This document shows, piece by piece, positions 4,717 to 63,946 of a DNA stretch of 64,000 nt. The DNA is from a virus: positions 1 through 64,000 of the IMG/VR virus record IMGVR_UViG_3300037875_000559, one strand, 5' to 3'. Within the stretch, counting starts at the first letter, position 1, and every line of letters starts with the position of its first letter. A program made the translations under genes and the position numbers. Under the pieces are notes generated by a model, which was not told where the DNA came from, did no database searches, and saw nothing but the letters and a program-made list of their open reading frames with translations.

Positions 4717-5460
4717 ATGTTAAATCTATTACTTGCAACTTCCATGATTTTTCAATGCTTTGTGGAGGTTGTACATGAGTCTTCAAAGTACCATATTACT
4801 AGACCCTTCAAATTTCATAAAAATAAAAGAGGGGCTAAGAAAAAACGGATAGAGAAACTAGTTAGAGAGGTATGGGAAGAGGGTGGTGCAGATGTTCGAT
4901 TTCTTGCTATTTCTTGGGTGGAGTCTCGATTGCGACTGAAAATAAGAAGAGGTGATAAAGGTAAGGCTTGCGGTACGTTTCAAATCCACGCCCGACATTC
5001 GTACCCCCTTTTTCGTAGAAAAAAAGGGTATGTAGATTGGGATGAGAGTGAAAATAAACCTCAGATAGAAAGAGAGTGCCAAAAGTTAGAGAACATAAGC
5101 TATTCTATAGACACTCAGAGTAGGCTTCTATCTATGATGGATAAAAGAGGGCTTCACACCTGCCACCACAACAGTGGGTTTTATGGGAAGTGCAGTACTT
5201 TTTATAGGCAGAGGATTGACTTTTGGGTTTCTTATTATTCTATTGCTCAATACTTATGTAATGAAAGGTCTTTGATTATGGCTATGTTGAAAATAGGTGC
5301 ACCAGCTCTTGCTACACCTTTAGAGAAGATACAAGGATACCTTGACTCTATAAAGAACAAAGAAGCACAGAGTGACTCTGAACTATATATGGAAGGGTAT
5401 AATCTAGCCTCCAAAGTGAAGCTTGGAGAGGAGTCTGCTCCTGTCTGGGCTCCTACATGA
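4717..5460 (+). CDS. Lytic transglycosylase-like cell-wall hydrolase
   Basis: Cleaves the MurNAc-GlcNAc bond of peptidoglycan, either at lysis or at entry. 247 residues from ATG 4717, chosen over GTG 4708 because GAGG at 4703 is correctly spaced. An N-terminal hydrophobic stretch (LNLLLATSMIFQCFVEVV) may be a signal or anchor. The SLT-like core is visible: ISWVESRL with catalytic Glu about residue 69, GTFQIH about 86-91, and a later HHNSG. Cysteines flanking the core could form disulphides in the periplasm. The last codons overlap the primase fragment (ATGA). It could be an endolysin or a virion-associated lysin; the hydrophobic N-terminus favours an exported endolysin. Confidence 0.65.
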   Translation: MLNLLLATSMIFQCFVEVVHESSKYHITRPFKFHKNKRGAKKKRIEKLVREVWEEGGADVRFLAISWVESRLRLKIRRGDKGKACGTFQIHARHSYPLFRRKKGYVDWDESENKPQIERECQKLENISYSIDTQSRLLSMMDKRGLHTCHHNSGFYGKCSTFYRQRIDFWVSYYSIAQYLCNERSLIMAMLKIGAPALATPLEKIQGYLDSIKNKEAQSDSELYMEGYNLASKVKLGEESAPVWAPT

Positions 5461-6137
5461 GGATAGAGGATTATTTAAGGCAAGGGTTTTGTCAAACTTC
5501 TCTTCAGTATAAACAATATCTCAGTAAGAGATTAGTTTCAGACAGTACAAGCCTAGATTTCTTCTGCTGGCAACCCCCAGCAGAGGTCGCCCCTTGCTCT
5601 AGGTTTACTTCTTCTTTTGGTGCTAGAGGAGAGAAGTTACGAGACTTCCTTATCACCCCAATTTATTCTTATGGTGGAGGCATTTTAGCCTTTGAAGCTC
5701 GTAAGATATTAAAAGAGGATTCTAAGTATGTTCTTAAATACCAAACGGATCGTGCTTCTTGGAATCCTTATCTTTTGGGGGTCAAGAAAGTGACAGATAC
5801 TTTATGGGAGGGTACTGGAGATGTTTGGCTTGTAGAGGGTGTTTTTGATTACACCGCTTTGGAAGTAGCAGTGCCTAAAAGTGATGCTGTCATGTGTACT
5901 CTGAGAGCCGGTATGACCAACCTTACTTTCAATCATATTTTAAGGTTTTACACACCTTCTACTACTCTCAATATTGTGTATGATAATGATGAGGCCGGGA
6001 GAAATAAGTCAAAAATGATACATCGAAAGTTCAACCAAAATGGAGTTCGCTCTGTGGTTTGGAAATATCGAGGTAAAGATCCTAACGAAGTCTTAACCAA
6101 AGGAGGCTTGAAAACTATGCGAAGGATGTTTACTTAA
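5457..6137 (+). CDS. DnaG-type primase, Toprim catalytic half
   Basis: 226 residues carrying the Toprim fold that makes RNA primers in DnaG-like primases. Seen: VWLVEGVFDYTAL with the catalytic Glu and Asp (about residues 123-135) and IVYDNDEAGRNKS with the DxDxxG metal-binding motif (about 173-185). A full DnaG also has an N-terminal CHC2 zinc finger; here that domain is missing and is encoded about 55 kb away at 60527-61051 on the other strand. No helicase domain follows. It starts with ATG overlapping the transglycosylase stop (ATGA), implying translational coupling. Confident for Toprim, good for primase. Confidence 0.8.
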   Translation: MRIEDYLRQGFCQTSLQYKQYLSKRLVSDSTSLDFFCWQPPAEVAPCSRFTSSFGARGEKLRDFLITPIYSYGGGILAFEARKILKEDSKYVLKYQTDRASWNPYLLGVKKVTDTLWEGTGDVWLVEGVFDYTALEVAVPKSDAVMCTLRAGMTNLTFNHILRFYTPSTTLNIVYDNDEAGRNKSKMIHRKFNQNGVRSVVWKYRGKDPNEVLTKGGLKTMRRMFT

Positions 6138-6605
6138 CTATTTCTTCATTCTTTCGATAGCTTCTCCGAGAATATTTTTAATCTCAGAATCTTTGAAGAT
6201 CGGCACATTTGGAAGTGGGGTAGATTTAGAGGCTACGTCTACAGTTTCTCTATCTGAGTGGGGTATTCTTTGCCTGTAGAAATCTTCTCCCATAGTGATG
6301 AGAGCATAGTTAGTTTTATCTAGTTGTCTTTCTATCTCTGACAATATCTGAGGGAGCGATAAAAAGTTGTCTCCACACAGACGGTAGATTTCCTCTCTGA
6401 CGGGAGAAGATTTGATCGCTTTTTCCATTTGGTTGATAGCTACTCTTAGTTTATATGTCTCTACTCTAGCGTCTGATACTCCACCTGCTAGGAGAGACCA
6501 AGATGCTTGGCTAGAAGCTACCTTCTCCACACTACCTAACTCAGGTTGGGTGTTTGTAGGAGAGTCCTCAGTGGTATTACTAGAAGTTTTTGCCATATTT
6601 CTCAT
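6138..6605 (-). CDS. Hypothetical protein, helical
   Basis: 155 residues with a low-complexity Ser/Thr/Asn N-terminus and then a helical region (YKLRVAINQMEKAI and LPQILSEIERQLDKTNYALI). No recognised domain. Its stop is directly next to the stop of the Toprim gene (6137/6138), a convergent pair without spacer. The start is ATG at 6605; an in-frame ATG lies three codons later. The 136-base spacer to the next rightward gene holds a candidate promoter for that gene. Confidence 0.6.
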   Translation of the reverse strand: MRNMAKTSSNTTEDSPTNTQPELGSVEKVASSQASWSLLAGGVSDARVETYKLRVAINQMEKAIKSSPVREEIYRLCGDNFLSLPQILSEIERQLDKTNYALITMGEDFYRQRIPHSDRETVDVASKSTPLPNVPIFKDSEIKNILGEAIERMKK

Positions 6606-6689
6606 AAGATCTACTCTTTTTATATTGGTTATGTCGTATTGTCAGTAGGTGGAGTGGATAAAAAAACAACAAATGTGTGTTGGGTTGTT

Positions 6690-6700
6690 AGTTTATTTAT
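6690..6700 (+). promoter_or_regulatory. Candidate phage promoter element AGTTTATTTAT
   Basis: The 11-mer AGTTTATTTAT ends 41 bases before the ATG of the 6742 gene. The same 11-mer is at 10083-10093 and 56444-56454, each also 41-56 bases before a gene start, and close relatives are at 8398 and 29428. It resembles an AT-rich -10 or T4-late-like element. Function is inferred from position and recurrence only. Confidence 0.4.
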
Positions 6701-6741
6701 TGTGTTCTGTTTATTAATTGAAAACATAGAAAGGTTTCGTC

Positions 6742-7347
6742 ATGTATGAAAGATTAACCTCAGAAGAAAAAAGACTCGTAAGGATTGCTAAAGAGCGTCC
6801 CGACTTGAGAGATAAAATCGCCAAGTACATAAAGAAATCTTCTTCTGAGACGGTTGTACTTTTTCTCGAAGCTGTTTTAGGCGATTCAGAGAAACAAAAA
6901 CTACTTTCTTGGTTGGGTCGGCAAGAAAGTACACCAAGTAATTGGGCGGGGTGGGAAATAATCGCACATCATATGAAAGTGGAGTTCTTTGGAAATAAAG
7001 GTAGACCAAAGAATATACCAAAAGAGTATGTCAACAAAATTGGAGAGACTGTGGGCTTAGAAGTTGTTGGCATTGCAATGGATGAAAAAGCGATTGCTGT
7101 TCTTATTAAACCCCCCTCTTCTCTGGCAAAGTTAGTAAAGAACGAATTTCCTCACATCACCATCGCAGTGGATGGTGTTAAACCACCCTACAGCAACAAG
7201 CTAATAAAAAAATCTATAGAGCGTAAGACTCTTATTACCAAAGACGAGAACGGTAGGAATATTTCTTTTAATATAACTGCAAAAGTAGGGTACTTTGAGG
7301 GACGCACAAAGGCAGATCTCTTTGAGCTACCTTCAGAACTTTTCTGA
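6742..7347 (+). CDS. Possible 2H-phosphoesterase-like protein
   Basis: 201 residues starting at ATG 6742 with AAAGG upstream. The C-terminal 140 residues carry two His-centred strand motifs: IIAHHMKVEFFG (about 73-84) and FPHITIAVDG (about 132-141), followed by KPPYSNK. Paired His motifs on strands of similar spacing are the signature of 2H phosphoesterases (LigT, tRNA-ligase CPDase), which act on 2',3'-cyclic or 2'-5' RNA ends. The first motif has Lys where Thr/Ser is usual. With the HAD RNA-repair-like gene at 51296 it may belong to an RNA-repair set. The assignment is a pattern match and uncertain. The end overlaps the opposite-strand gene by 15 bases. Confidence 0.4.
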   Translation: MYERLTSEEKRLVRIAKERPDLRDKIAKYIKKSSSETVVLFLEAVLGDSEKQKLLSWLGRQESTPSNWAGWEIIAHHMKVEFFGNKGRPKNIPKEYVNKIGETVGLEVVGIAMDEKAIAVLIKPPSSLAKLVKNEFPHITIAVDGVKPPYSNKLIKKSIERKTLITKDENGRNISFNITAKVGYFEGRTKADLFELPSELF

Positions 7348-21618: not shown

Positions 21619-21960
21619 ATGAACCGATCCGCATCTGAAATAATTCTCAACCTTGAGAACAGGGTTACAAGACTTGAAAATCGGATTGCTAGTGAGGCCG
21701 TAGATCTGCGTTATGTTCACGATCTTGCCAAGCAAAAACTATCAAACAGAAATGTTGTTGATGTGCAAAGAGGGAAGGACCCTACAGGTCGAGAGATGGT
21801 TTCTATCACTCTTTCTAATGGTGTAGAAATAAGCTACTCAAAATACCATAATATTATTATGACAACATCTACGGGTGACGCTTTAGATATTGGAAACCCG
21901 CCTCATGGAATGATGAATGAACAGATGGATTCAGACATAGCTAAATACAGTCGTTTTTGA
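21619..21960 (+). CDS. Small protein with N-terminal amphipathic helix
   Basis: 113 residues, AGGAG upstream of ATG 21619. The first 25 residues (SEIILNLENRVTRLENRIAS) form an amphipathic, coiled-coil-like helix shared with other genes here. The remainder is alpha/beta (REMVSITLSNGVEISYSKY). No enzymatic motif. The shared N-terminus suggests a common destination, possibly packaging in the capsid. The end overlaps the opposite-strand GIY-YIG gene by 20 bases. Confidence 0.5.
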   Translation: MNRSASEIILNLENRVTRLENRIASEAVDLRYVHDLAKQKLSNRNVVDVQRGKDPTGREMVSITLSNGVEISYSKYHNIIMTTSTGDALDIGNPPHGMMNEQMDSDIAKYSRF

Positions 21961-51295: not shown

Positions 51296-51922
51296 CTATT
51301 GAAACCTATATATATTCATAGGTTTTTGCTCTATAAACCATTTGTAGTCTTCTTCTAATAACCCCTGAGTAGGTGGTTCTATATTAACGAGGTGTCCATA
51401 GAAAGGCATTTCTAGACTTTGGCAAACTTCCTTATAAGCATTGATGTTTTGCTGATTATCTTCCCAAAGATGTACACTTGTAACATTTTTGAGAGTATTT
51501 ATCTTTTTGAGCAATACGCTTACTTTATATTCGATAGTCTCTAAATGTCTTTCTCTTAAGAAGACTTCATCGAAATCTAGATTTCTTGCAGAGAGTATTT
51601 CTGCGATTCTATATCTCAGACCGCCATTATCTTCTCTTGCAGTACACAAGATAGCCCATGTGTTTTGTGAGCTAATGGATTTTTCAGCTTCTTTTACTGT
51701 TTGGGGGATCCAGTGTCTTGCAGATTGAGGGAAATCTGGGATAAAGGGTCTGCCTAAAGAAATAGCTTCTGACTCCCATTCTCCATATTTCTCATCCTCC
51801 CACCATATGGGTTTAGGAGGGCTCTTGAAAAGAGTCCAATCAAAATCATAGACGTGGAGACTCAGATTTTGAGAAGACTTCTTTAAAAACTTGGTAGCAA
51901 CTCTAGCTGTCTTATTTCTCAT
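51296..51922 (-). CDS. HAD-family protein, Swiss Army Knife RNA repair-like
   Basis: 208 residues. HAD motif I is HVYDFDWTLFKSP (Asp26, Asp28). It is followed by the W-rich PIWWEDEKYGEWE and SLGRPFIPDFP, which mark the SAK/RNA-repair HAD branch. ILCTAREDNGG is motif II and HLWEDNQQNI motif IV. These proteins are proposed to process RNA 3' phosphates in RNA repair operons. A phage may use it to counter tRNA-cleaving defence. Expression is leftward, alone, before the repeat lipoprotein. Confidence 0.7.
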   Translation of the reverse strand: MRNKTARVATKFLKKSSQNLSLHVYDFDWTLFKSPPKPIWWEDEKYGEWESEAISLGRPFIPDFPQSARHWIPQTVKEAEKSISSQNTWAILCTAREDNGGLRYRIAEILSARNLDFDEVFLRERHLETIEYKVSVLLKKINTLKNVTSVHLWEDNQQNINAYKEVCQSLEMPFYGHLVNIEPPTQGLLEEDYKWFIEQKPMNIYRFQ

Positions 51923-53297: not shown

Positions 53298-56033
53298 TCA
53301 CAGCAAAGTGTTTATATTTCTTCCTTCAAAAAAGACCTGTGTCTTTTTATCCTTGTTTTCATTTAACCACAAAGCTAGTGCTTCTGCTTCTTTTTTTGTC
53401 AGCTCTTTGATTTCGTATCTCTCTGTAGATTCAGAAATAGTGGTTTTTTCAGTAGCTTCCGTTGTCACTATTTCTTCTTTTTCACTTTCTTTAAATATAG
53501 AATAAAGCTCATCTACTTCATTTTGTGTGGTTTGTCTCTCTTCAGCAGAGTACTTGTAATCTGTATTATGACTATCACATTCTTTACATATAGCTTCAGA
53601 AATAGTGGTTTTGATTTTACCTGTCTCGCCACAATCTAAGCACTTAAATCCTTTAAGTATTTTCTCACCTGCGGTTCGCTCTTTGATGTCTTTTACATCG
53701 TAAGGTACATCCCAACGCTTACCTAGTTCCACATCTACTAGAAGAGGCACAGCCCAATTTTGTGAAGCTATCGCTTTATTTCTAGCCATGATCTTAGAAA
53801 TTATTACGATGGCTTCTTCTAGTATAGAAGAATGTATTTCAAACACGATCTCGTCATGTACTGTAAGAATCATGTGGAGTTTGTCGAACCAATTCTTCTG
53901 CTTAACTGCTTTGTAGATCAAGCTCATAGCAAGTTTGGTTATGTCTGCGGATGTTCCTTGAATCGGGCCATTTACCGCTTTTCTCTCGTCTTTAGATTTC
54001 CTTCTAAAATCTTCAGATTTAATCTCAGGTAAAGGTTGTACTCTACCAAAAGCAGTTCTGACGTAGCCTTGTTTTCTCCCTAGTTTGTGTTGATGACTCC
54101 ACCAACCTGTGAGAGTCTTATAAGTAGATGTAAACTTTCGGAACTTTTCTTCTCCCTCTTCGGCAGTACAACCTTCAATGGATCTTTGTACTGCTTTACC
54201 AGTACCTCCGTAAGAAAGTGCAAAGTTACAACGCTTACCATGCCCTCTCAAGGCTTTCCAACGAGGGTCTTTCTTAGCTTGCTCTCCGTAGAAAGCAACT
54301 GCTGTGATTGTGTGTAGATCCCCAATCTTGTCAGATCCACACTTTGGACAAAAAGGGGGTGTCTCGATGGGTAAATTGTTTTCTACTATTTCTTGGGGTA
54401 GCTCATATCCACACTCAGAACATTGGTAAAATGCTTTGATCCATTTAGGTTCATTGGAGAGGTTTGTTACAAGTCTTAACTCCACTCCTGCATAGTCTAT
54501 GGCTACAAGCCAATTTTCTTTATTTCTCACATCAACACAGCTTCGCATTTGGTTGACTATGCGAGGCTTATTTGAGTCATATGAAGACGGGATTCCTTGA
54601 AAGGGTACACGACACCCTCCGTCTTTGGTCTTTTGTGGGTCTTTTGTAGTCTTACAGCTAAAGCGACCTGTGTCAGCAGAAAACTGCTTAAACGAAGGTT
54701 TGAGCGTACCGTCTCTCCCTACGTCTTCTAAGAATGGTATGAGATACTGATTTAAGGCTCTACTGATATTTCTTAGTCTTTTCATTTTAGCCATAAAGGG
54801 GAACTCTTTATAGGACTTCTCGATCACGTCATCGAGAACATCAGCCCCTGTTTTAACCTGCCCCGACTTTTCAGATAATTGTAAGTTGGGGATATTAAGC
54901 TCACGAAATAGCAAACCTAACTGTTGTGGGGACATAATGTCATATACGAGAGGGAACTCGATATTTTCAGTACCCTCTCTTCCCACATAATTCACTGTTT
55001 TTTGGGTTGTTTGTTTGGGGTCGGGGTATAAGCGTTTTGCTTCTTTACGAGCTTCGTCTAAGATTATCTTATAAAACAAACCGCTCTCAATCTTCTCGGT
55101 ATTGAAATGGTTCTCGCCTTTCAACTCGCCTTTCATAAGTCTAAGAAAGGAGGGGGTGATGTCTCTTTTGAGTATATCTTTAGCACCACGATATACTTCT
55201 AGTAACGAATCCCACCATTCTTGGTGTCCCTCTAAAATAAACTCTTTTGTTTTTACAGGATCTACATGGACACGACAACGGTGCATCCAACGCACTGAAA
55301 CAGCACACGATTTCTCTAAGTTATACATGGAGTCCGAATGCTCAGGGAGTTCAACATATTTCTTTCTCTGTATGTTGAATACTCTTAGCGTACATAGTGG
55401 GTCTGCTCCTGCATATAAAACACTTGGTCGCCATGAGGGGTCTAGTGTGGAGTAGTCTTTAACCTTTGTTTCGGGCAACAGTTCCTTAAGCTCGATCATT
55501 TCCATCCCACAAAGATTTTTAGAAAGAGCTTTGAGTCCACGACCTCCTTTTTCTCGTGGGTTGAGAAGATAAGTCAGAATAAGAGTGTCTTCCCATTTTC
55601 TCCCGCTGTTAAATCTTTCTCTTCCTAAGTTGAAGAATCCATTATAGTCGAGAAACTCTAAGTCAAAGTTAGCGTTGTGGAATACAGGGTTGGCTTCAAC
55701 TTCAGTTGAGAATAAGCGAGCGAACTCCATCCCTAAGACAGACCAAGGAAGATTATGTTCAGAGCCTTGTTTATGTCCTACAGGGAAATAATAGGCTTTG
55801 TCTTCTGTAGGAGCGATACCGATCCCTACAATAGAGTCTATGGTTCTCCCCCCATAGACTCTGCTGTCTAGTCCTGTAGTCTCTATGTCACACCCATAAT
55901 AATCTGAAGCAATACACTCATCTATTGCTTGAGAGATGTTTTCTTTTGTTCCAAGTATTAGCTCTACGTCTGCCATCCAGTCTTTCGGCTTAATGTCGGG
56001 TCGTCTTATTTCTTCTAAAAAATCAGAAAACAT
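53298..56033 (-). CDS. DNA polymerase I (family A) with zinc-ribbon insertions
   Basis: 911 residues. 3'-5' exonuclease: YGCDIETTGLDS (about 46-57) and FHNANFDLEFLDY. Polymerase motif A is AIDYAGVELRLV (about 510), motif B is GKRCNFALSYGGTGKAV with Lys, Phe and Tyr-Gly of the O helix, and motif C is VHDEIVFEI (about 725). The Phe at the sugar-selective site predicts discrimination against dideoxynucleotides. Two additions: a ribbon CSEC...CPKC about 533-565 between motif A and the LHTITA helix, and CLDC...CKEC about 795-815 after motif C, plus a 100-residue Glu/Thr tail. No 5'-3' exonuclease. This is the probable replicative enzyme. Confidence 0.93.
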   Translation of the reverse strand: MFSDFLEEIRRPDIKPKDWMADVELILGTKENISQAIDECIASDYYGCDIETTGLDSRVYGGRTIDSIVGIGIAPTEDKAYYFPVGHKQGSEHNLPWSVLGMEFARLFSTEVEANPVFHNANFDLEFLDYNGFFNLGRERFNSGRKWEDTLILTYLLNPREKGGRGLKALSKNLCGMEMIELKELLPETKVKDYSTLDPSWRPSVLYAGADPLCTLRVFNIQRKKYVELPEHSDSMYNLEKSCAVSVRWMHRCRVHVDPVKTKEFILEGHQEWWDSLLEVYRGAKDILKRDITPSFLRLMKGELKGENHFNTEKIESGLFYKIILDEARKEAKRLYPDPKQTTQKTVNYVGREGTENIEFPLVYDIMSPQQLGLLFRELNIPNLQLSEKSGQVKTGADVLDDVIEKSYKEFPFMAKMKRLRNISRALNQYLIPFLEDVGRDGTLKPSFKQFSADTGRFSCKTTKDPQKTKDGGCRVPFQGIPSSYDSNKPRIVNQMRSCVDVRNKENWLVAIDYAGVELRLVTNLSNEPKWIKAFYQCSECGYELPQEIVENNLPIETPPFCPKCGSDKIGDLHTITAVAFYGEQAKKDPRWKALRGHGKRCNFALSYGGTGKAVQRSIEGCTAEEGEEKFRKFTSTYKTLTGWWSHQHKLGRKQGYVRTAFGRVQPLPEIKSEDFRRKSKDERKAVNGPIQGTSADITKLAMSLIYKAVKQKNWFDKLHMILTVHDEIVFEIHSSILEEAIVIISKIMARNKAIASQNWAVPLLVDVELGKRWDVPYDVKDIKERTAGEKILKGFKCLDCGETGKIKTTISEAICKECDSHNTDYKYSAEERQTTQNEVDELYSIFKESEKEEIVTTEATEKTTISESTERYEIKELTKKEAEALALWLNENKDKKTQVFFEGRNINTLL

Positions 56034-56495: not shown

Positions 56496-56840
56496 ATGTC
56501 TCAAGACCCAACACAGCTCGATAAACTACCTCTCAAAAGCAAAAAGTTCCTAGCGTATTTGATTGCTGACATAGGATGGAAGATCCTCATGTTTTATGTA
56601 ATATGGGAGTACCAAACTAAGATTGAGCATTATGCTTTTATGGTTCTTGTTACTATGATCGTAACAAGCGGCTTCATTCAGATCGGCTATATTTTAGGGC
56701 AAGCTGCTCTTGATAAATATACAACCGTTGCTGTTTCTGCTCTCGATAGAGAGGGTAAAAGTCCAACACCACCTTCATCACCTCAGAAAAAGAAAGAGGG
56801 TGCTTCTGAAGAAGGTGGAGACTTTGATGGGACTCTTTAA
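56496..56840 (+). CDS. Two-span membrane protein
   Basis: 114 residues, AAAGGAG upstream. LPLKSKKFLAYLIADIGWKI leads into a first span (ILMFYVIWEY); a second is AFMVLVTMIVTSGFIQIGYI. The C-terminal 35 residues are Pro/Ser/Glu/Gly-rich and cytoplasmic-like. LKSKKFLAYL-AxIGWK is a pattern I recall from phage membrane proteins of holin-like size, with no proven role. The stop overlaps the GNAT start by 14 bases. Confidence 0.5.
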   Translation: MSQDPTQLDKLPLKSKKFLAYLIADIGWKILMFYVIWEYQTKIEHYAFMVLVTMIVTSGFIQIGYILGQAALDKYTTVAVSALDREGKSPTPPSSPQKKKEGASEEGGDFDGTL

Positions 56841-57363
56841 AGAAAGAAATAATGCATCTGCAAAAAGAGTAGCGGAGAAGTTTTCTTCTTCGATTAAGAA
56901 TAAAAACTTCACTCTTCCAATACAATACGAAAAGGATTTAACAGTAAGTCCTTTTGGGATTAGTCTTGTTTTAAATTTGCAGTATGAGGGTGGAGATGTA
57001 GGGTTTATCTCAGGCTATATAGATCCGATAAAACAGACTGGTGTCTCTGCATATCAGTGTGCTTCAGATATTCGGAGTTTGTCCCAACAACACCCCTCTG
57101 TTAATACCAAGAAAGGTGAGATTAGGCTTGTTGCGGTCGGTCAGTCTGAACTATACAAACCATATAGAGGTGTGGGTTTAGGGGTTCAGATGTACACAGA
57201 ATTCCTCCGCTCTGTTTGGGACAAGGTTAGAAAGCCTTTCATATTTATTCCAGATGCTTGTGATGTAGGTAGGACTTCAGACGACGCAAGAAGGGTTTGG
57301 AAGTCTTTAGCTAGAAATAAACCCTCTTCTAATCTTTGTATTACGATCTTGAACCGACCATAA
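56827..57363 (+). CDS. GNAT-like acetyltransferase
   Basis: 178 residues from ATG 56827, 6 bases after GGTGGAG and inside the end of the preceding gene. The CoA-binding region is PYRGVGLGVQMYTEFLR (about 117-133), then KPFIFIPDA and the family end SDDARRVWKSLARNKPSSN with LCITILNRP. A basic N-terminal helix (ASAKRVAEKFSSSI) resembles the targeting-like helices. Paralogues are at 20871 and 61121. Substrate unknown. Confidence 0.65.
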   Translation: MGLFKERNNASAKRVAEKFSSSIKNKNFTLPIQYEKDLTVSPFGISLVLNLQYEGGDVGFISGYIDPIKQTGVSAYQCASDIRSLSQQHPSVNTKKGEIRLVAVGQSELYKPYRGVGLGVQMYTEFLRSVWDKVRKPFIFIPDACDVGRTSDDARRVWKSLARNKPSSNLCITILNRP

Positions 57364-57375
57364 GGAGAAATAGGA

Positions 57376-58731
57376 ATGCCTAAGTACAATTTAAATTTAG
57401 TACAACAAAGAGAGCAAGCCCGTCATGTTACTCAAGCTCTAAGTGCATATACTCGTTTAGCTAGAGAAGTTGTGAGTATGGGTGCTTCAGCGAAAGCAGA
57501 CTCTAATCCAAAAAGAAGATTTACACAGCTTGCTAGATCCTCTTCAAAGGTGTCTGCTTTTTTAGATGCTTTTATAGGGCAACCTACAGACTATTCTGTG
57601 GCATATAGTTTTCGTGAGAAATGTATATATGCTCTTAGAGATCAGCTCTTAGGTTTAAAAACACAGGCTGAAGCCGAAGAAATAATTACTAAGAATGCAG
57701 AGAAGTCCTACATACAAATGTCTGTCTCTTCTGCTCAGAAGAACTTGAGAGGTCTTTTACCACCTGAAATAAAGGCGTTCTTACCTGAGAACATTGTGAT
57801 TGAGACTGACGATGACGGGTCTATTACAAGTATGACGGATGTTTTTGGTAATGAGAAAGACGACCTTCAAACTAAAGTCAATTTAGTTCGTAAAATTGTG
57901 ACTGATTACAATAAGATTGTGAAACAGGTGAAGAAAGATCTAGCTTCAAAGAATGAGCGTACTAAGTTCAAGGCAATAGTGACTTCTATTCTTATGGAAA
58001 CAGGAATCCGACCTGGACGAGAAGGAAATGCGTCTAAAGTAGCAGGGGTGCTAATAGAGACATTCGGGGCTGTAACTTTAGCTCCCGAACACATTACTTT
58101 TGTAAAAAGTAACCTTGCTGAGTTGAAGTTCGTGGGGAAGGCAGGGACTGTGAATGTTGCGTCTCTTTCAGATAATGCTGTGATTAGAGAACTCAAAAAC
58201 TACGCATTAAAAGCTTTAAAAGGTAAATTGAAGCGTGTTTTTGTAGATAGAAATGGTATTTCACTATCTCATGTAGAGATAAACTACTATTTCCAAGAAT
58301 ACTTTGGGTCTATCCGACCTTCTGACTTGAGAAAATATAAAGCTACAGAGCAGATGTTTGAAGCATTGAAAGAAGAGCAACAGAAGTTACAGGCGAATAT
58401 CTTAAAATTCGTAGATGAAGAGGCTGAAGACTTAAAAGAGCGAGTTCTGTCCGAAATAGTGAACACTTTGAATCTTGCAGTCGAGCGAGCGAAATCGTCT
58501 CTGAGTCATTTATCAGGAGCAGATACCGTTGGGTATTATATTAATCCCGATGTCGTCTTGTCTTTTCTCTCACAAGGATTTGTTGACGCAGACTTGAAGA
58601 GTGCGATCATTAAGAATGACCGTACTCTTTCTTTTGATGTGGATGTTTTTGTACAGCATGCACTTTCTAAGAGAGGTTCTTCTTCTCACAATCTGCTTTC
58701 TATTTTCACAGAAATCGAAAATATGTTTTAA
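57376..58731 (+). CDS. DNA topoisomerase IB-like protein
   Basis: 451 residues. Catalytic domain about 190-400: METGIRPGREGN with Arg212, ELKFVGKAGT with Lys255, PSDLRKYKAT with Arg319, and SHLSGADTVGYYINP with His378 and the candidate nucleophile Tyr387 or Tyr388. These fit the Arg-Lys-Arg-His-Tyr set of type IB enzymes, which relax supercoils through a 3'-phosphotyrosine link. Residues 1-120 are helical, with an amphipathic start (RHVTQALSAYTRLAREVVSM). The insert between Arg319 and His378 is longer than in bacterial enzymes. GGAG precedes the ATG. Confidence 0.75.
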   Translation: MPKYNLNLVQQREQARHVTQALSAYTRLAREVVSMGASAKADSNPKRRFTQLARSSSKVSAFLDAFIGQPTDYSVAYSFREKCIYALRDQLLGLKTQAEAEEIITKNAEKSYIQMSVSSAQKNLRGLLPPEIKAFLPENIVIETDDDGSITSMTDVFGNEKDDLQTKVNLVRKIVTDYNKIVKQVKKDLASKNERTKFKAIVTSILMETGIRPGREGNASKVAGVLIETFGAVTLAPEHITFVKSNLAELKFVGKAGTVNVASLSDNAVIRELKNYALKALKGKLKRVFVDRNGISLSHVEINYYFQEYFGSIRPSDLRKYKATEQMFEALKEEQQKLQANILKFVDEEAEDLKERVLSEIVNTLNLAVERAKSSLSHLSGADTVGYYINPDVVLSFLSQGFVDADLKSAIIKNDRTLSFDVDVFVQHALSKRGSSSHNLLSIFTEIENMF

Positions 58732-60526: not shown

Positions 60527-61051
60527 TCAAGGTATTTTCTTTAAAAGCGTATACCAATGTTTAGACGATTGAAGATCTAATGATTTTATCAAGTCGAATG
60601 CTTCCCATAGTTTGATTGCAGTCGAGAGTTCTATTTCTCTCTTTGTCGTTTTGTCTTTTAATATCTGATGTGTTCTTTTAGCGAGGTTTTCTATTTCTAT
60701 TGTGTTTGGGTTTTTGTCCGTATTTTCTTCAACATAGAGATCTTTCTTTCTCGTCTGAACCCAACCACTCAAGCCATACTTCTTCTCTAAGAGAGTGCAG
60801 GATTCAGAAAAAGAGAGACCTTCTTTTTCTAATACTGTTGAAATTGCATCTCTACTTTTCCCACAAGCAAAACAAAACCAACTGCTTGTTTGAGGGTAAA
60901 CTCTAGCGGAAGGTGCATTGTCCTGCCCATCTCCATGCAGATCGCACCTAAACTGTTGCTCTCCTCCTCCTTCATAAACATCGTACCCATACCCTTGAAG
61001 TACGGACTCTATGCTTATTTCTTCTTTGATTCTATCTGCTCTTTTGTTCAT
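60527..61051 (-). CDS. DnaG-type primase, CHC2 zinc-finger half
   Basis: 174 residues, AAAGGAAG 5 bases before ATG 61051. Zinc finger about 33-63: FRCDLHGDGQDNAPSARVYP then WFCFACGKSRDAIS, the CxxH...CxxC CHC2 layout that recognises single-stranded template in DnaG. The remaining 90 residues are helical without a Toprim motif. The Toprim half is at 5457. Together they would make one primase from two polypeptides. The helical part could include the linker that docks to the other half. Confidence 0.85.
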   Translation of the reverse strand: MNKRADRIKEEISIESVLQGYGYDVYEGGGEQQFRCDLHGDGQDNAPSARVYPQTSSWFCFACGKSRDAISTVLEKEGLSFSESCTLLEKKYGLSGWVQTRKKDLYVEENTDKNPNTIEIENLAKRTHQILKDKTTKREIELSTAIKLWEAFDLIKSLDLQSSKHWYTLLKKIP

Positions 61052-61120: not shown

Positions 61121-61639
61121 ATGAAGTCTGTAGAGTCTTACACTTATGATGGAGTGTTACAGTATGAAGAGTACTCTAGGGGTCTAGATGTTGGTGTTAC
61201 ACTATACGCTAATGATAGTGAAATAGGCTACATTCGGGGGCAGAAACTCAATTATAATAACTTTGAGAGCTTACAAAAAGCTAAGACTTGCTACAAGGAT
61301 GTTATCCATCTTGCAGGTCTGGGTGGGAAATCTGTGTGCGATACGGTAAAAGGTACTTCTTGCCTTTTACCTAGAGTTTTTATGATTACAGATGTAGAAT
61401 TAGAGAGTTATGACGACCAAGGAGTGAAGCTTAGAGGTCTTGGTCTTGGTAAGATTCTCTATGAGGTTATTTTTACAGAGTTTTTTGAGGAGAATGGGGA
61501 TTTCATTGCAGTTCCAATGAAATGTATTTTCGGAAGAGATAATACTTCTCCTGACGCACAAAGAGTGTGGGACTCTCTTGCTAGAAATCTGGAATCTTCT
61601 TCGGATCTAGTTCTTGTAGATAGGGCTTTGCACTTTTAG
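61121..61639 (+). CDS. GNAT-like acetyltransferase
   Basis: 172 residues. GLGLGKILYEVIFTEFFEEN (about 108-127) is the CoA-binding turn and helix, and the end has SPDAQRVWDSLARNLESS, shared with the 20871 and 56827 proteins. The N-terminus is a beta region (GVTLYANDSEIGYIRGQKL). Its last 4 bases overlap the stop of the convergent 61636 gene. Target unknown. Confidence 0.6.
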   Translation: MKSVESYTYDGVLQYEEYSRGLDVGVTLYANDSEIGYIRGQKLNYNNFESLQKAKTCYKDVIHLAGLGGKSVCDTVKGTSCLLPRVFMITDVELESYDDQGVKLRGLGLGKILYEVIFTEFFEENGDFIAVPMKCIFGRDNTSPDAQRVWDSLARNLESSSDLVLVDRALHF

Positions 61640-61980
61640 TCTTTCTCCCACCAATCGTCAAAACTGCCAAAAGGGATAAGGTCGTATATTTCTACAGGTA
61701 TGCTACCAACACAATCATAGCTGAACCACTCACCACTCCCTCTCCACCTTTTAAGTGTCTCATGAAGTTCCTTTTCTCTCCACCCTAATCCTTCCAAAGA
61801 TATAATTATTTTCAGAGTGTTAGGGTTACCTGTTTGTAAGTTCTTCAACCTTTTCTGAGGGTGCTTAGACCTGCCTATCTTTATTTCTCCTGTCTTTGAT
61901 GATTGTATGAAATAAAGACAGTCGCCTTTTCTTTTCAGTTTGCTTTTTTTGTAACTAACTATTAGATCATCGTAGTTCAT
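61636..61980 (-). CDS. T5orf172/MUG113-type GIY-YIG-like protein
   Basis: 114 residues: CLYFIQSSKTGEIKIGRSKH (about 21-40), PQKRLKNLQTGNPNTLKII, then KELHETLKRWRGSGEWF, the three segments that define the Mug113/T5orf172 branch of GIY-YIG nucleases. It sits 2 bases after the ABC-GNAT gene and could be part of that operon. A more distant GIY-YIG protein is at 21941. Confidence 0.75.
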   Translation of the reverse strand: MNYDDLIVSYKKSKLKRKGDCLYFIQSSKTGEIKIGRSKHPQKRLKNLQTGNPNTLKIIISLEGLGWREKELHETLKRWRGSGEWFSYDCVGSIPVEIYDLIPFGSFDDWWEKD

Positions 61981-61982
61981 TC

Positions 61983-63134
61983 TTATACTCCAAAGAAGTT
62001 GTCTTGTTTTTTGGAACGGTCTTCTTGTCCTTTTAAAAGTCTAGTCCCATCTCCAATATATTCGTGAGAATAGCAGAGTCGATCAGCATGGGCTTCATAG
62101 TCAAAGCTTGTGTAAGCACCACGCTTTTTGGAGTTATTAGAACCCATTCCTTGATAACTGTTCTTTCTACTCACTTTATTCATGCTTGTTGGCTTCCATA
62201 TTTCAGAGTTATTTCTATGTTCCCCTAGCTTTGGGTGAGCTGTTTTAGAGAAATAACGGCAACCCCTATCATAAAACATCTTTGCTACTGCATTTGAGAG
62301 CTTAGATCCTAGTCCCATCCCTTGAAAATCTGGTAAGATCACAGTCCTATGCTCTCTCCAAGCATTTCTCAAATCTCTGCTAGGGAAAGGGATAGCCGAT
62401 CCAAACCCACAAATCGTGTCATGCTCATTAACAAGCAACCAACAGTGAGCCGACTTATTTATTTCAGAGCTTAAATAGTGATGGTCGCAGAAGACTGACC
62501 ACGCTTCGGTCGAGCAAGGTAGGACTCTAAAATCTGAAGAGAGCCTTTCCGACCTCCCTTCTACGAGCCGTCTCGTTAACGTGTTAGCCACCCAATCAGG
62601 CTCTAACCAATTAATAACATCTTCGTGACAGGTGGCAATGACTACATTTCTATAGCCATAGTGGTCTATTACGTTTCTTACACCTACAGAAATAGAGTGA
62701 GCTAAGTCTCTATTACACACAGATGTAAACTCATCTATCACACAGCCGTCTTTCAGACTTATGGCTATCTCCGCTCTGTGTTTTTCTCCTGTAGAGAGGA
62801 CATGGTAAGGTCTGCAAAGAGAGGGTATGGAAGATAATCCTATTTTCATAAGTAGATTGGGTTCTACTTGTGAAGCTATAGCTAAGTTCCCCTTCCAAAC
62901 TATTTCTTTCACCCCTCCCATTTCTTTAAGGAGAGTTGATTTACCGCTTCCACTAGGGCCGAAAATAACTCCAAGTGAGAAATCTTGAGGTACTTTAAAA
63001 GTAGGTACTGTGAAAGAGCTTTCTCCATTAAACCTATAGTCTGAAACTTCGGCTACTCTCTGAATGGTAGGTTCTAGGTCTACTTTTGAGGTGAGGGTTT
63101 GCCCTCCTATTTTTCTATAATTAAATAAGTCCAA
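61983..63134 (-). CDS. ABC ATPase fused to acetyltransferase (COG2401-like)
   Basis: 383 residues. ATPase half: Walker A IFGPSGSGKST at 57-67, signature VLSTGEKHRAEIA at 112-124, Walker B CVIDEFTS at 131-138, switch His in IATCHEDV at 170. There is no membrane domain, so it is not a transporter. Acetyltransferase half about 210-330: CWLLVNEHDTICGFGSAIP, then LPDFQGMGLGSKLSNAVAKM. This architecture is COG2401 (ABC-type ATPase fused to a predicted acetyltransferase); the GNAT part resembles Mom-like DNA-modifying enzymes. The C-terminus is DNFFGV. It is adjacent to a DNA methyltransferase with the same last five residues. Confidence 0.8.
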   Translation of the reverse strand: MDLFNYRKIGGQTLTSKVDLEPTIQRVAEVSDYRFNGESSFTVPTFKVPQDFSLGVIFGPSGSGKSTLLKEMGGVKEIVWKGNLAIASQVEPNLLMKIGLSSIPSLCRPYHVLSTGEKHRAEIAISLKDGCVIDEFTSVCNRDLAHSISVGVRNVIDHYGYRNVVIATCHEDVINWLEPDWVANTLTRRLVEGRSERLSSDFRVLPCSTEAWSVFCDHHYLSSEINKSAHCWLLVNEHDTICGFGSAIPFPSRDLRNAWREHRTVILPDFQGMGLGSKLSNAVAKMFYDRGCRYFSKTAHPKLGEHRNNSEIWKPTSMNKVSRKNSYQGMGSNNSKKRGAYTSFDYEAHADRLCYSHEYIGDGTRLLKGQEDRSKKQDNFFGV

Positions 63135-63136
63135 TT

Positions 63137-63946
63137 TTAAACTCCAAAAAAGTTCTCAGTTTTATATTTAGGTTCAGGAGCTACACCTTTACTCCAAATC
63201 CAAATTGGTTCGCCAAAAGGCTTTGTTGTTTTTTGCCCCCCACGCTGATAAAGCTCGTAGCCGATTACACCTTCGTAATGAGCGTTAAGATTTTCCATAT
63301 GTTTGAGCATCGGCTCACATAGGTTTATGTTTTTTTTGTCGTTGATATTAATACACATACGACCACCTTCAGATAAATGCTTCCAACACTTTGTTAGGGT
63401 TGGAAATAGAAAACCCTCTAGCCATTTTTCAGGTGTCGTGTATCGCTTCCAACTTTGTGTCTCTTCTTCACTATATCGTTCAATGTTGAAATAAGGAGGA
63501 GAGGTAAATACAAAATCAAACTCTCTCTCTCCAAGATCAACATCTTCAGCAGGAGAACAGATAAACTCTGTTTTCTTTTTTGTGTTACAGAAATCAGAAA
63601 TAGCTTCATATTTCTCATGGAGTTTAGTGTTTGGATCTATGCCTACATAAGAAATAGCGTTTGAAGCATGGAAGCCTACGAGCCGATCTCCCCATCCTGC
63701 TGAGAAATCGAGAACATTCTTAGCATCAAAGAACTCGTATATCCATTTCGCAACTACAGGTCTAAACTGTTGAGCCATATAAGAATGGCTCATGATAGCT
63801 CTCCTTAAAGTCTGGCTGTTTATGCCACCTCTAGTGTAAGGTTCATCGCTTCTAAACCCAAAGAACCCTCTGAGGAAGTTGTTTTTCTTATCTGAGTTCT
63901 CCCACTCATATATAGGAGACTTACTTGAATGATAACCACAGCCCAT
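63137..63946 (-). CDS. SAM-dependent DNA methyltransferase (N4/N6-type)
   Basis: 269 residues. SAM motif I VLDFSAGWGDRLVGF (about 78-92), a following YVGIDPN (motif II), and catalytic motif IV FTSPPYFN (about 149-156; [TN]SPPY class). Later GRMCININDKKN. The target may be adenine N6 or cytosine N4. No target-recognition domain is obvious, so specificity is not predictable from the sequence. It ends TENFFGV, as does the ABC-GNAT gene, 2 bases downstream. Start is ATG 63946; upstream sequence leaves 54 bases to the window edge. Confidence 0.75.
   Translation of the reverse strand: MGCGYHSSKSPIYEWENSDKKNNFLRGFFGFRSDEPYTRGGINSQTLRRAIMSHSYMAQQFRPVVAKWIYEFFDAKNVLDFSAGWGDRLVGFHASNAISYVGIDPNTKLHEKYEAISDFCNTKKKTEFICSPAEDVDLGEREFDFVFTSPPYFNIERYSEEETQSWKRYTTPEKWLEGFLFPTLTKCWKHLSEGGRMCININDKKNINLCEPMLKHMENLNAHYEGVIGYELYQRGGQKTTKPFGEPIWIWSKGVAPEPKYKTENFFGV

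Follow-up and report, generated by a model that had tools for sequence, protein, structure and literature searches.

Clamp-type C-terminal tails on a phage ABC ATPase-GNAT protein and neighbouring methyltransferases: a candidate replication-coupled DNA-modification array

An ABC ATPase fused to a GNAT domain (ABC-GNAT) and the four DNA methyltransferases beside it in a virus genome end in short tails that resemble, to differing degrees, the motif by which bacterial proteins bind the sliding clamp. The window analysed here is the first 64,000 nucleotides of a virus record totalling 84,198 bases (IMGVR_UViG_3300037875_000559). We consider it probable from the sequence evidence that these genes of a large phage form a modification array that docks on the sliding clamp and works in step with replication, marking DNA against restriction. 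The ABC-GNAT would attach an acyl-type group to a base of the DNA, the flexible Q-x-x-[LFY]-F-like tail of each enzyme would bind the clamp, most likely host DnaN, and docking just behind the fork would allow new phage DNA to be modified as it is made and so protected from restriction nucleases. Such an array would be modular, with enzymes swapped between relatives and newcomers bearing the tail.

The genes with their families and intact catalytic motifs are read directly from the sequence, and so are the tails, where they occur and how far they exceed chance. Clamp binding, replication coupling, DNA as the substrate, the acyl chemistry and the anti-restriction purpose are what we infer. That clamp-type tails are common to unrelated modification enzymes is strongly supported as a sequence pattern, and their function in clamp binding moderately so; clamp binding by the FF-form tails of the window itself is the least certain part.

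Genes of the array and their replication setting

The ABC-GNAT gene (61983..63134, minus strand) encodes 383 amino acids from a TTG start, which is supported by the beginnings of its relatives (MDLFDYKK and MQLFNYKK). The initial annotation had recognised both an ABC ATPase and a GNAT domain in this one gene, and this was borne out by a PF00583 match, conserved ABC motifs and an AF2 model that matches both folds. The GNAT domain is above the Pfam cut-off (PF00583, E 1.1e-8), and its acyl-CoA binding motif, R-x-V-x-L-P-D-F-Q-G-x-G-x-G (residues 263-276; 62307..62348, minus strand), falls in invariant columns, R263 and Q271-G-x-G-x-G being conserved in an alignment of 54 homologues such that the motif is intact. 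The ABC part is under its cut-off (PF00005, 22.6 vs 25 bits); in the same alignment Walker A, the signature LSxGE, Walker B DE and the H-loop H170 are invariant or nearly so, with G59/S61/G62/G64/K65 of the Walker A (GPSGSGKS; 62937..62963, minus strand) invariant throughout. The AF2 model (pLDDT 89, pTM 0.83) is confident except for the last ten residues, and a PDB search with it matched ABC nucleotide-binding domains and GNAT acetyltransferases. PHROG 11143 matches the protein at 4.5e-83. Identities to phage homologues are 40% (Aeromonas PX29), 36% (pT24; tblastn, E 1e-55), 34% (Nonlabens P12024S) and 30% (Leptospira LE4), the last matching over its full length in predicted fold (TM 0.75). 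PX29 and P12024S, both cultivable, bear tailed ABC-GNATs. Membership of the MADS defence system was rejected, as mad2/mad3 matches were partial only, covering 31-74 (P-loop) and 189-328.

For a GNAT coupled to an ABC ATPase, a DNA-base acyl modification of uncharacterised kind has already been predicted, Tenacibaculum phage pT24 being the named example; this prediction rests on earlier work by the same group (Iyer/Aravind; PMC7824862). With this example in print, the acyl-modification idea of the initial annotation is an existing predicted role and not a new one, and the window protein is, as judged by homology, a new member of this kind of predicted DNA modifier.

Two bases away lies a type-A DNA amino-methyltransferase gene with the TSPPY motif (393 aa, PF01555; 63137..64318, minus strand, with the window holding the part to 64000). 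The family and motif first assigned to it stand, whereas the start placed at 63946 is an internal ATG and the gene runs on to 64318. The PF01555 match is 30.8 bits against a cut-off of 26.7, SPPY is invariant among homologues, and the nearest folds to the model are Trm11-type RNA methyltransferases and other methyltransferases. The product is assigned to the amino-methyltransferases (N6_N4_Mtase), its nucleic acid and base being predicted by family. Three more methyltransferase genes follow beyond the window in almost gapless order: a beta-class methyltransferase (64315-65079, PF01555 1.8e-41), a D12/Dam-like methyltransferase (65083-65793, PF02086) and a second, paralogous type-A methyltransferase (65797-66993), all on the minus strand. 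The array therefore totals one ABC-GNAT and four methyltransferases (two type-A, one beta-class and one D12).

On the other side of the ABC-GNAT is a 114-aa T5orf172/MUG113 (GIY-YIG type) nuclease-like gene (61636..61980, minus strand) without a clamp-like tail. Both 2-base gaps had been given correctly. The initial annotation had suggested that this gene may be part of the unit; it follows the methyltransferase array with or without an ABC-GNAT, and stands at the array's end in several relatives (L355, L005 and L347). A common N-terminus, M[LF]F[DE][YL] or M[DQ]LF[ND]Y, was observed on array enzymes including the ABC-GNAT (from 63134) and type-A methyltransferases, as well as in L004, L005 and L355, and such a peptide is also on the QueC-like gene of L004. 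This peptide may be a second docking motif.

Downstream of the array there are also a DnaG-type zinc ribbon primase-like gene (60527..61051, minus strand; PF01807 3.9e-10) and a family A DNA polymerase of 911 aa (53298..56033, minus strand), and beyond the second type-A methyltransferase, past the window end, there is a DnaB-like helicase and then an SNF2 helicase. With helicases on one side and nuclease-like, primase-like and polymerase genes on the other, the modification cassette is embedded in a replication operon. The nearest phage record to the polymerase, which bears zinc-ribbon-like CxxC insertions, is an uncultured 485-kb phage (43%). The record is probably a fragment, since this best polymerase match is so large and longer contigs of relatives reach 375 kb. 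No clamp gene was found in it by PF00712, PF02768, PF02916 or PF00705, so the partner of the tails would be the host's clamp or an unrecognised one. The same profiles, across all records searched (possibly fragments), found only the gp45 clamp of phage PX29. The ABC-GNAT of PX29 ends in GLDFMFGI and its polymerase in LTDLFGDW, a single case in keeping with tails matched to their own clamp.

Several other features of the record were observed. These are a type IB (eukaryotic-type) topoisomerase core at 57376-58731 on the plus strand (PF01028 1.4e-14), and two opposite-strand GNAT-like paralogues (56710-57363 and 61121-61639, plus strand) with the common sequence TSxDAxRVWxSLARN and no Pfam or PHROG match. 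Genes at 6742-7347 (plus strand) and 51296-51922 (minus strand) are possible RNA-repair genes with a tRNA-ligase CPD-type domain (PF08302) and a HAD_SAK_1 domain (PF10307), and the first of them has a somewhat clamp-like C-terminus, ADLFELPSELF. In addition, the peptide MRR[ST]ASE[VI][IL]RxLExRIxRLE is the N-terminus of genes of differing length, as if it were a common targeting peptide (21619-21960, plus strand; L004:13154; L005:9757 and 14030; L347:420 and 1249; L268:429; L269:5214).

Form and distribution of the tails

The five adjacent array enzymes end in SDNFFGV, KQVDLFGI, QTQEYFF, TENFFGV and QDNFFGV. A pentapeptide shared by the ABC-GNAT and its methyltransferase neighbour had received only a passing mention in the initial annotation and became the most informative feature: NFFGV does end both genes, with differing codons, and the likeness exceeds chance because NFFGV ends three array genes, with QVDLFGI and QTQEYFF at the ends of the remaining two. 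The ABC-GNAT tail, QDNFFGV (61986..62006, minus strand), is a proposed clamp-binding motif and is predicted to be disordered, residues 374-383 having pLDDT < 50 in the AF2 model. The methyltransferase tail, TENFFGV (63140..63160, minus strand; QDNFFGV or QDNYFGV in relatives), has a pLDDT of about 42 over its last residues. In both models the tails lie in an accessible, flexible segment.

Bacterial clamp-binding proteins include PolC, DnaE and Hda. The bacterial motif is QL[S/D]LF or, more generally, QxxLF (PMC12309361; also PMC9690074), and stands at the extreme C-terminus of B. subtilis PolC as QLSLF (PMC12309361). QVDLF in the D12 enzyme is a canonical form of it. The other array tails depart from it, with FF or YF instead of LF (QDNFF in the ABC-GNAT and TENFF in its neighbour) and with Q absent from its usual place in two of the five. 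In the sister lineage L006, two tandem ABC-GNATs have the tails QESLF and QGSLF, which fit the clamp consensus. Related tails occur in the nearest relatives on type-A methyltransferases and on two LPG-synthase-like paralogues, those of L005 ending in TYFGV; no further relatives of these paralogues were found.

Across viral ABC-GNATs 19 motif variants were seen at the ends, among them QISLF, QADLF, QMDLF, QESLF, QTEMF, QGTLF, QQSLF, QLTLL and QEAFNF. In a first sample of 66 non-redundant proteins, 23 extended 12 residues or more past the conserved core; the strict motif was present in 12 of these 23 and a looser one in 14, against a background for the strict motif of 0.076% of 17,150 internal 12-mers. 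Only 7 of 1158 other genes matched, and five of the seven are methyltransferases of these arrays. In the enlarged set the strict motif occurred in 18 of 42 distinct extensions (mean 0.24, maximum 3, in 2000 shuffles). Relatedness was allowed for with a tree of 97 ABC-GNATs, which needs eight changes of tail state, seven of them forced by well-supported branches and all among viruses. Some relatives have residues beyond the motif (QADLFTG, QQDLFGEQT and QINLFDDGQ), which argues against a signal read from the free C-terminus. Since 119 of the 161 viral ABC-GNATs sampled have no tail at all, clamp docking would not be needed for basic activity.

Similar endings are found on neighbours of other kinds. 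A Mom-family protein (PF25680, 5.4e-38) lies 33 bases downstream of the ABC-GNAT in L084, and the Mom-family neighbours of tailed ABC-GNATs in L084 and L090 end in QQVLF or QFGLF. In the same viral lineage a stand-alone GNAT sometimes takes the Mom position, with QISIF or QFGLF as its C-terminus.

Cellular homologues, which an alignment scan of bacterial genomes found and a single-sequence scan did not, are mostly from Planctomycetes and had a clamp-type tail in none of 68 cases. Immediately upstream they often have a gene of ParB_N type, recognised by Pfam in 13 of 40 and by a purpose-built profile in 23 of 35, a pattern seen in this analysis as a family feature and not a published criterion. 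Many such chromosomal pairs were noted in Planctomycetes (the L108-L187 set, for example L115, L118 and L141), and several temperate phages likewise have a ParB_N gene directly upstream of the ABC-GNAT. No ParB_N-type partner was found near the array of this record or for any of 161 ABC-GNATs on IMG/VR contigs, the ParB-linked homologues sampled had no tail, and no ABC-GNAT sampled had both. This mutual exclusion may simply follow phylogeny.

GNATs often acetylate proteins, and the tails could bind the clamp while the ABC-GNAT has a protein as its target or disturbs host replication there, in place of modifying DNA. Precedents for such activities are phage Rac, which acetylates RNA polymerase (PMC7824862), and SocB, which blocks DnaN through a clamp motif (PMC9690074). 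We regard this as unlikely, because the same tail is on four methyltransferases of the operon and on the Mom-family neighbour of relatives, and because ABC-GNATs with ParB_N genes occur in cells, where host shut-off would be senseless. It also seems improbable that the tail is a tag by which some other partner, such as the enzymes themselves, a phage protein or a protease, docks or sorts its carriers. NFFGV departs from QxxLF and all its carriers are within one operon, as such a tag would allow, but the canonical clamp consensus appears in many lineages, in some with trailing residues.

Appended tails on interchangeable modules

The array enzymes are combined freely among relatives. L355, the closest relative, is syntenic and 82-95% identical in the adjoining helicase genes, yet its array consists of four type-A methyltransferases and lacks an ABC-GNAT as well as D12 and beta-class enzymes; where the ABC-GNAT would stand, next to the same T5orf172 gene, there is a methyltransferase, and no ABC-GNAT was found in the whole L355 record. 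L006 has its two ABC-GNATs and no type-A methyltransferase detected in its 45-kb record. An ABC-GNAT remnant of about 42 residues with one stop was all that two further records with methyltransferase arrays kept of that gene (G011:C1:95996-96121 and G014:C1:76972-77097). These patterns indicate that the enzymes are interchangeable modules and not obligate pathway steps.

The initial annotation had proposed that the pair methylates and then acylates, or uses ATP to choose sites, and had pointed to a survey of gene neighbourhoods. An obligate pathway, in which methyltransferase and ABC-GNAT modify one base in succession or the ABC part chooses the sites of both enzymes, would suit their 2-base adjacency here and a similar pair in a distant 288-kb phage (L313/G005), where a type-A-like methyltransferase directly precedes the ABC-GNAT. 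It is nonetheless quite improbable, as the two genes assort independently in L355 and L006, and as Mom-type acylation needs a base amino group that prior N-methylation would consume. The survey of 80 viral loci did not bear out a link either: by motif count a PPY-type methyltransferase gene is near few of them, so a methyltransferase as general ABC-GNAT partner was rejected, and the neighbours are varied and often replication genes. The broader claim of a role in DNA modification fared better, being supported by the replication operon, the four methyltransferases, the Mom neighbour of relatives and the prior prediction; the obligate pair was not supported.

The tails are additions to these modules. 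Type-A methyltransferases at least 46% identical to the window copy have FF or YF tails, whereas nearly all of those at most 41% identical stop at the catalytic core, as does the nearest phage D12 homologue. In two of the more distant type-A enzymes the last residues are LNKFF, similar to a PCNA-type motif, as is the ABC-GNAT C-terminus of the 288-kb phage (SETLNKFFQF). Searching every IMG/VR contig for exact QDN[FY]FGV plus stop returned 11 stretches, all of them type-A methyltransferases or short remnants of them. Chance overlap with translation signals, GGAGTT/TAA being the Shine-Dalgarno site of the next gene, is a very improbable origin of the shared ending and largely refuted as its full cause: GGAG, which in several genes stands about 7 bases ahead of the following start, could yield at most the final GV, leaving Q-x-x-F-F outside, while FGV is retained where the next start is 98-470 bases off and in L268, where the codons GGT-GTA break the site.

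Further modification genes accompany the arrays of relatives. In very large phages, the type-A methyltransferase array of L347 (376 kb) includes thymidylate-synthase-like, PP-loop and PLP-enzyme genes, which are kinds typical of hypermodification pathways; similar-looking genes are in L356 (290 kb), and QueC-like PP-loop genes in L004 and L005. In L005 a QueC-like PP-loop domain was seen fused to an Asp/Asn beta-hydroxylase-like domain (4763-6826) within the modification array.

Clamp-type tails among known systems

Beyond this record, a wider reading can be put forward tentatively. Phages may keep a 'tool belt' in which unrelated modifying enzymes (ABC-GNATs, Mom-family proteins, stand-alone GNATs and three classes of DNA methyltransferase) independently gained clamp tails for hypermodification at the fork, with ParB-type partners recruiting the cellular and temperate-phage versions. 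How phage modifying enzymes reach new sites ahead of restriction enzymes is mostly unexplained, and a clamp tail would be a concrete mechanism. The tails could also serve as a sequence flag for modification enzymes among phage genes of no known role. Moreover, they support the published prediction of DNA modification by ABC-GNATs and offer a first handle on possible roles of the ATPase part and the ParB partner. No earlier report joining clamp-binding motifs with phage methyltransferases or DNA modification was found in open-licence papers (subscription journals lay outside the search). As far as searched, the shared clamp-type hook is new, and the kinds of enzyme were already known or predicted.

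The closest known systems are the predicted ABC-GNAT DNA modifiers (PHROG 11143, COG2401-type architecture), which the window protein resembles in domain order, homology and intact ATPase and acyl-CoA motifs; it differs from them in having no ParB-type partner, in its place in a methyltransferase array and in its appended clamp-type tail. The Mom family (Mu Mom, PF25680) likewise consists of GNAT-fold enzymes acting on phage DNA, but the comparison with Mu Mom made at the outset stands as an analogy only. The PF25680 and Mu Mom profiles fail to match the window GNAT domain (no PF25680 match at E <= 1; hhalign probability 0.2% to Mu Mom), and a true Mom-family gene is found beside clamp-tailed ABC-GNATs of relatives.

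Bacterial clamp-binding proteins similarly have a short motif ending a disordered C-terminal tail, and this is canonical in the sister lineages and in the D12 enzyme (QVDLF); the carriers here are phage modification enzymes, and for the main window form, QDNFF/TENFF, binding would be by analogy. RecF, likewise a soluble ABC ATPase, has been reported as an interaction partner of DnaN (PMC10287930); it has the ABC fold in common with the ABC-GNAT and lacks a GNAT domain. Finally, in animals the replication clamp PCNA recruits the methyltransferase DNMT1 to new DNA (PMC9690074), a comparison in manner of working only and not in homology, as the clamp, the enzymes and the purpose are all different.
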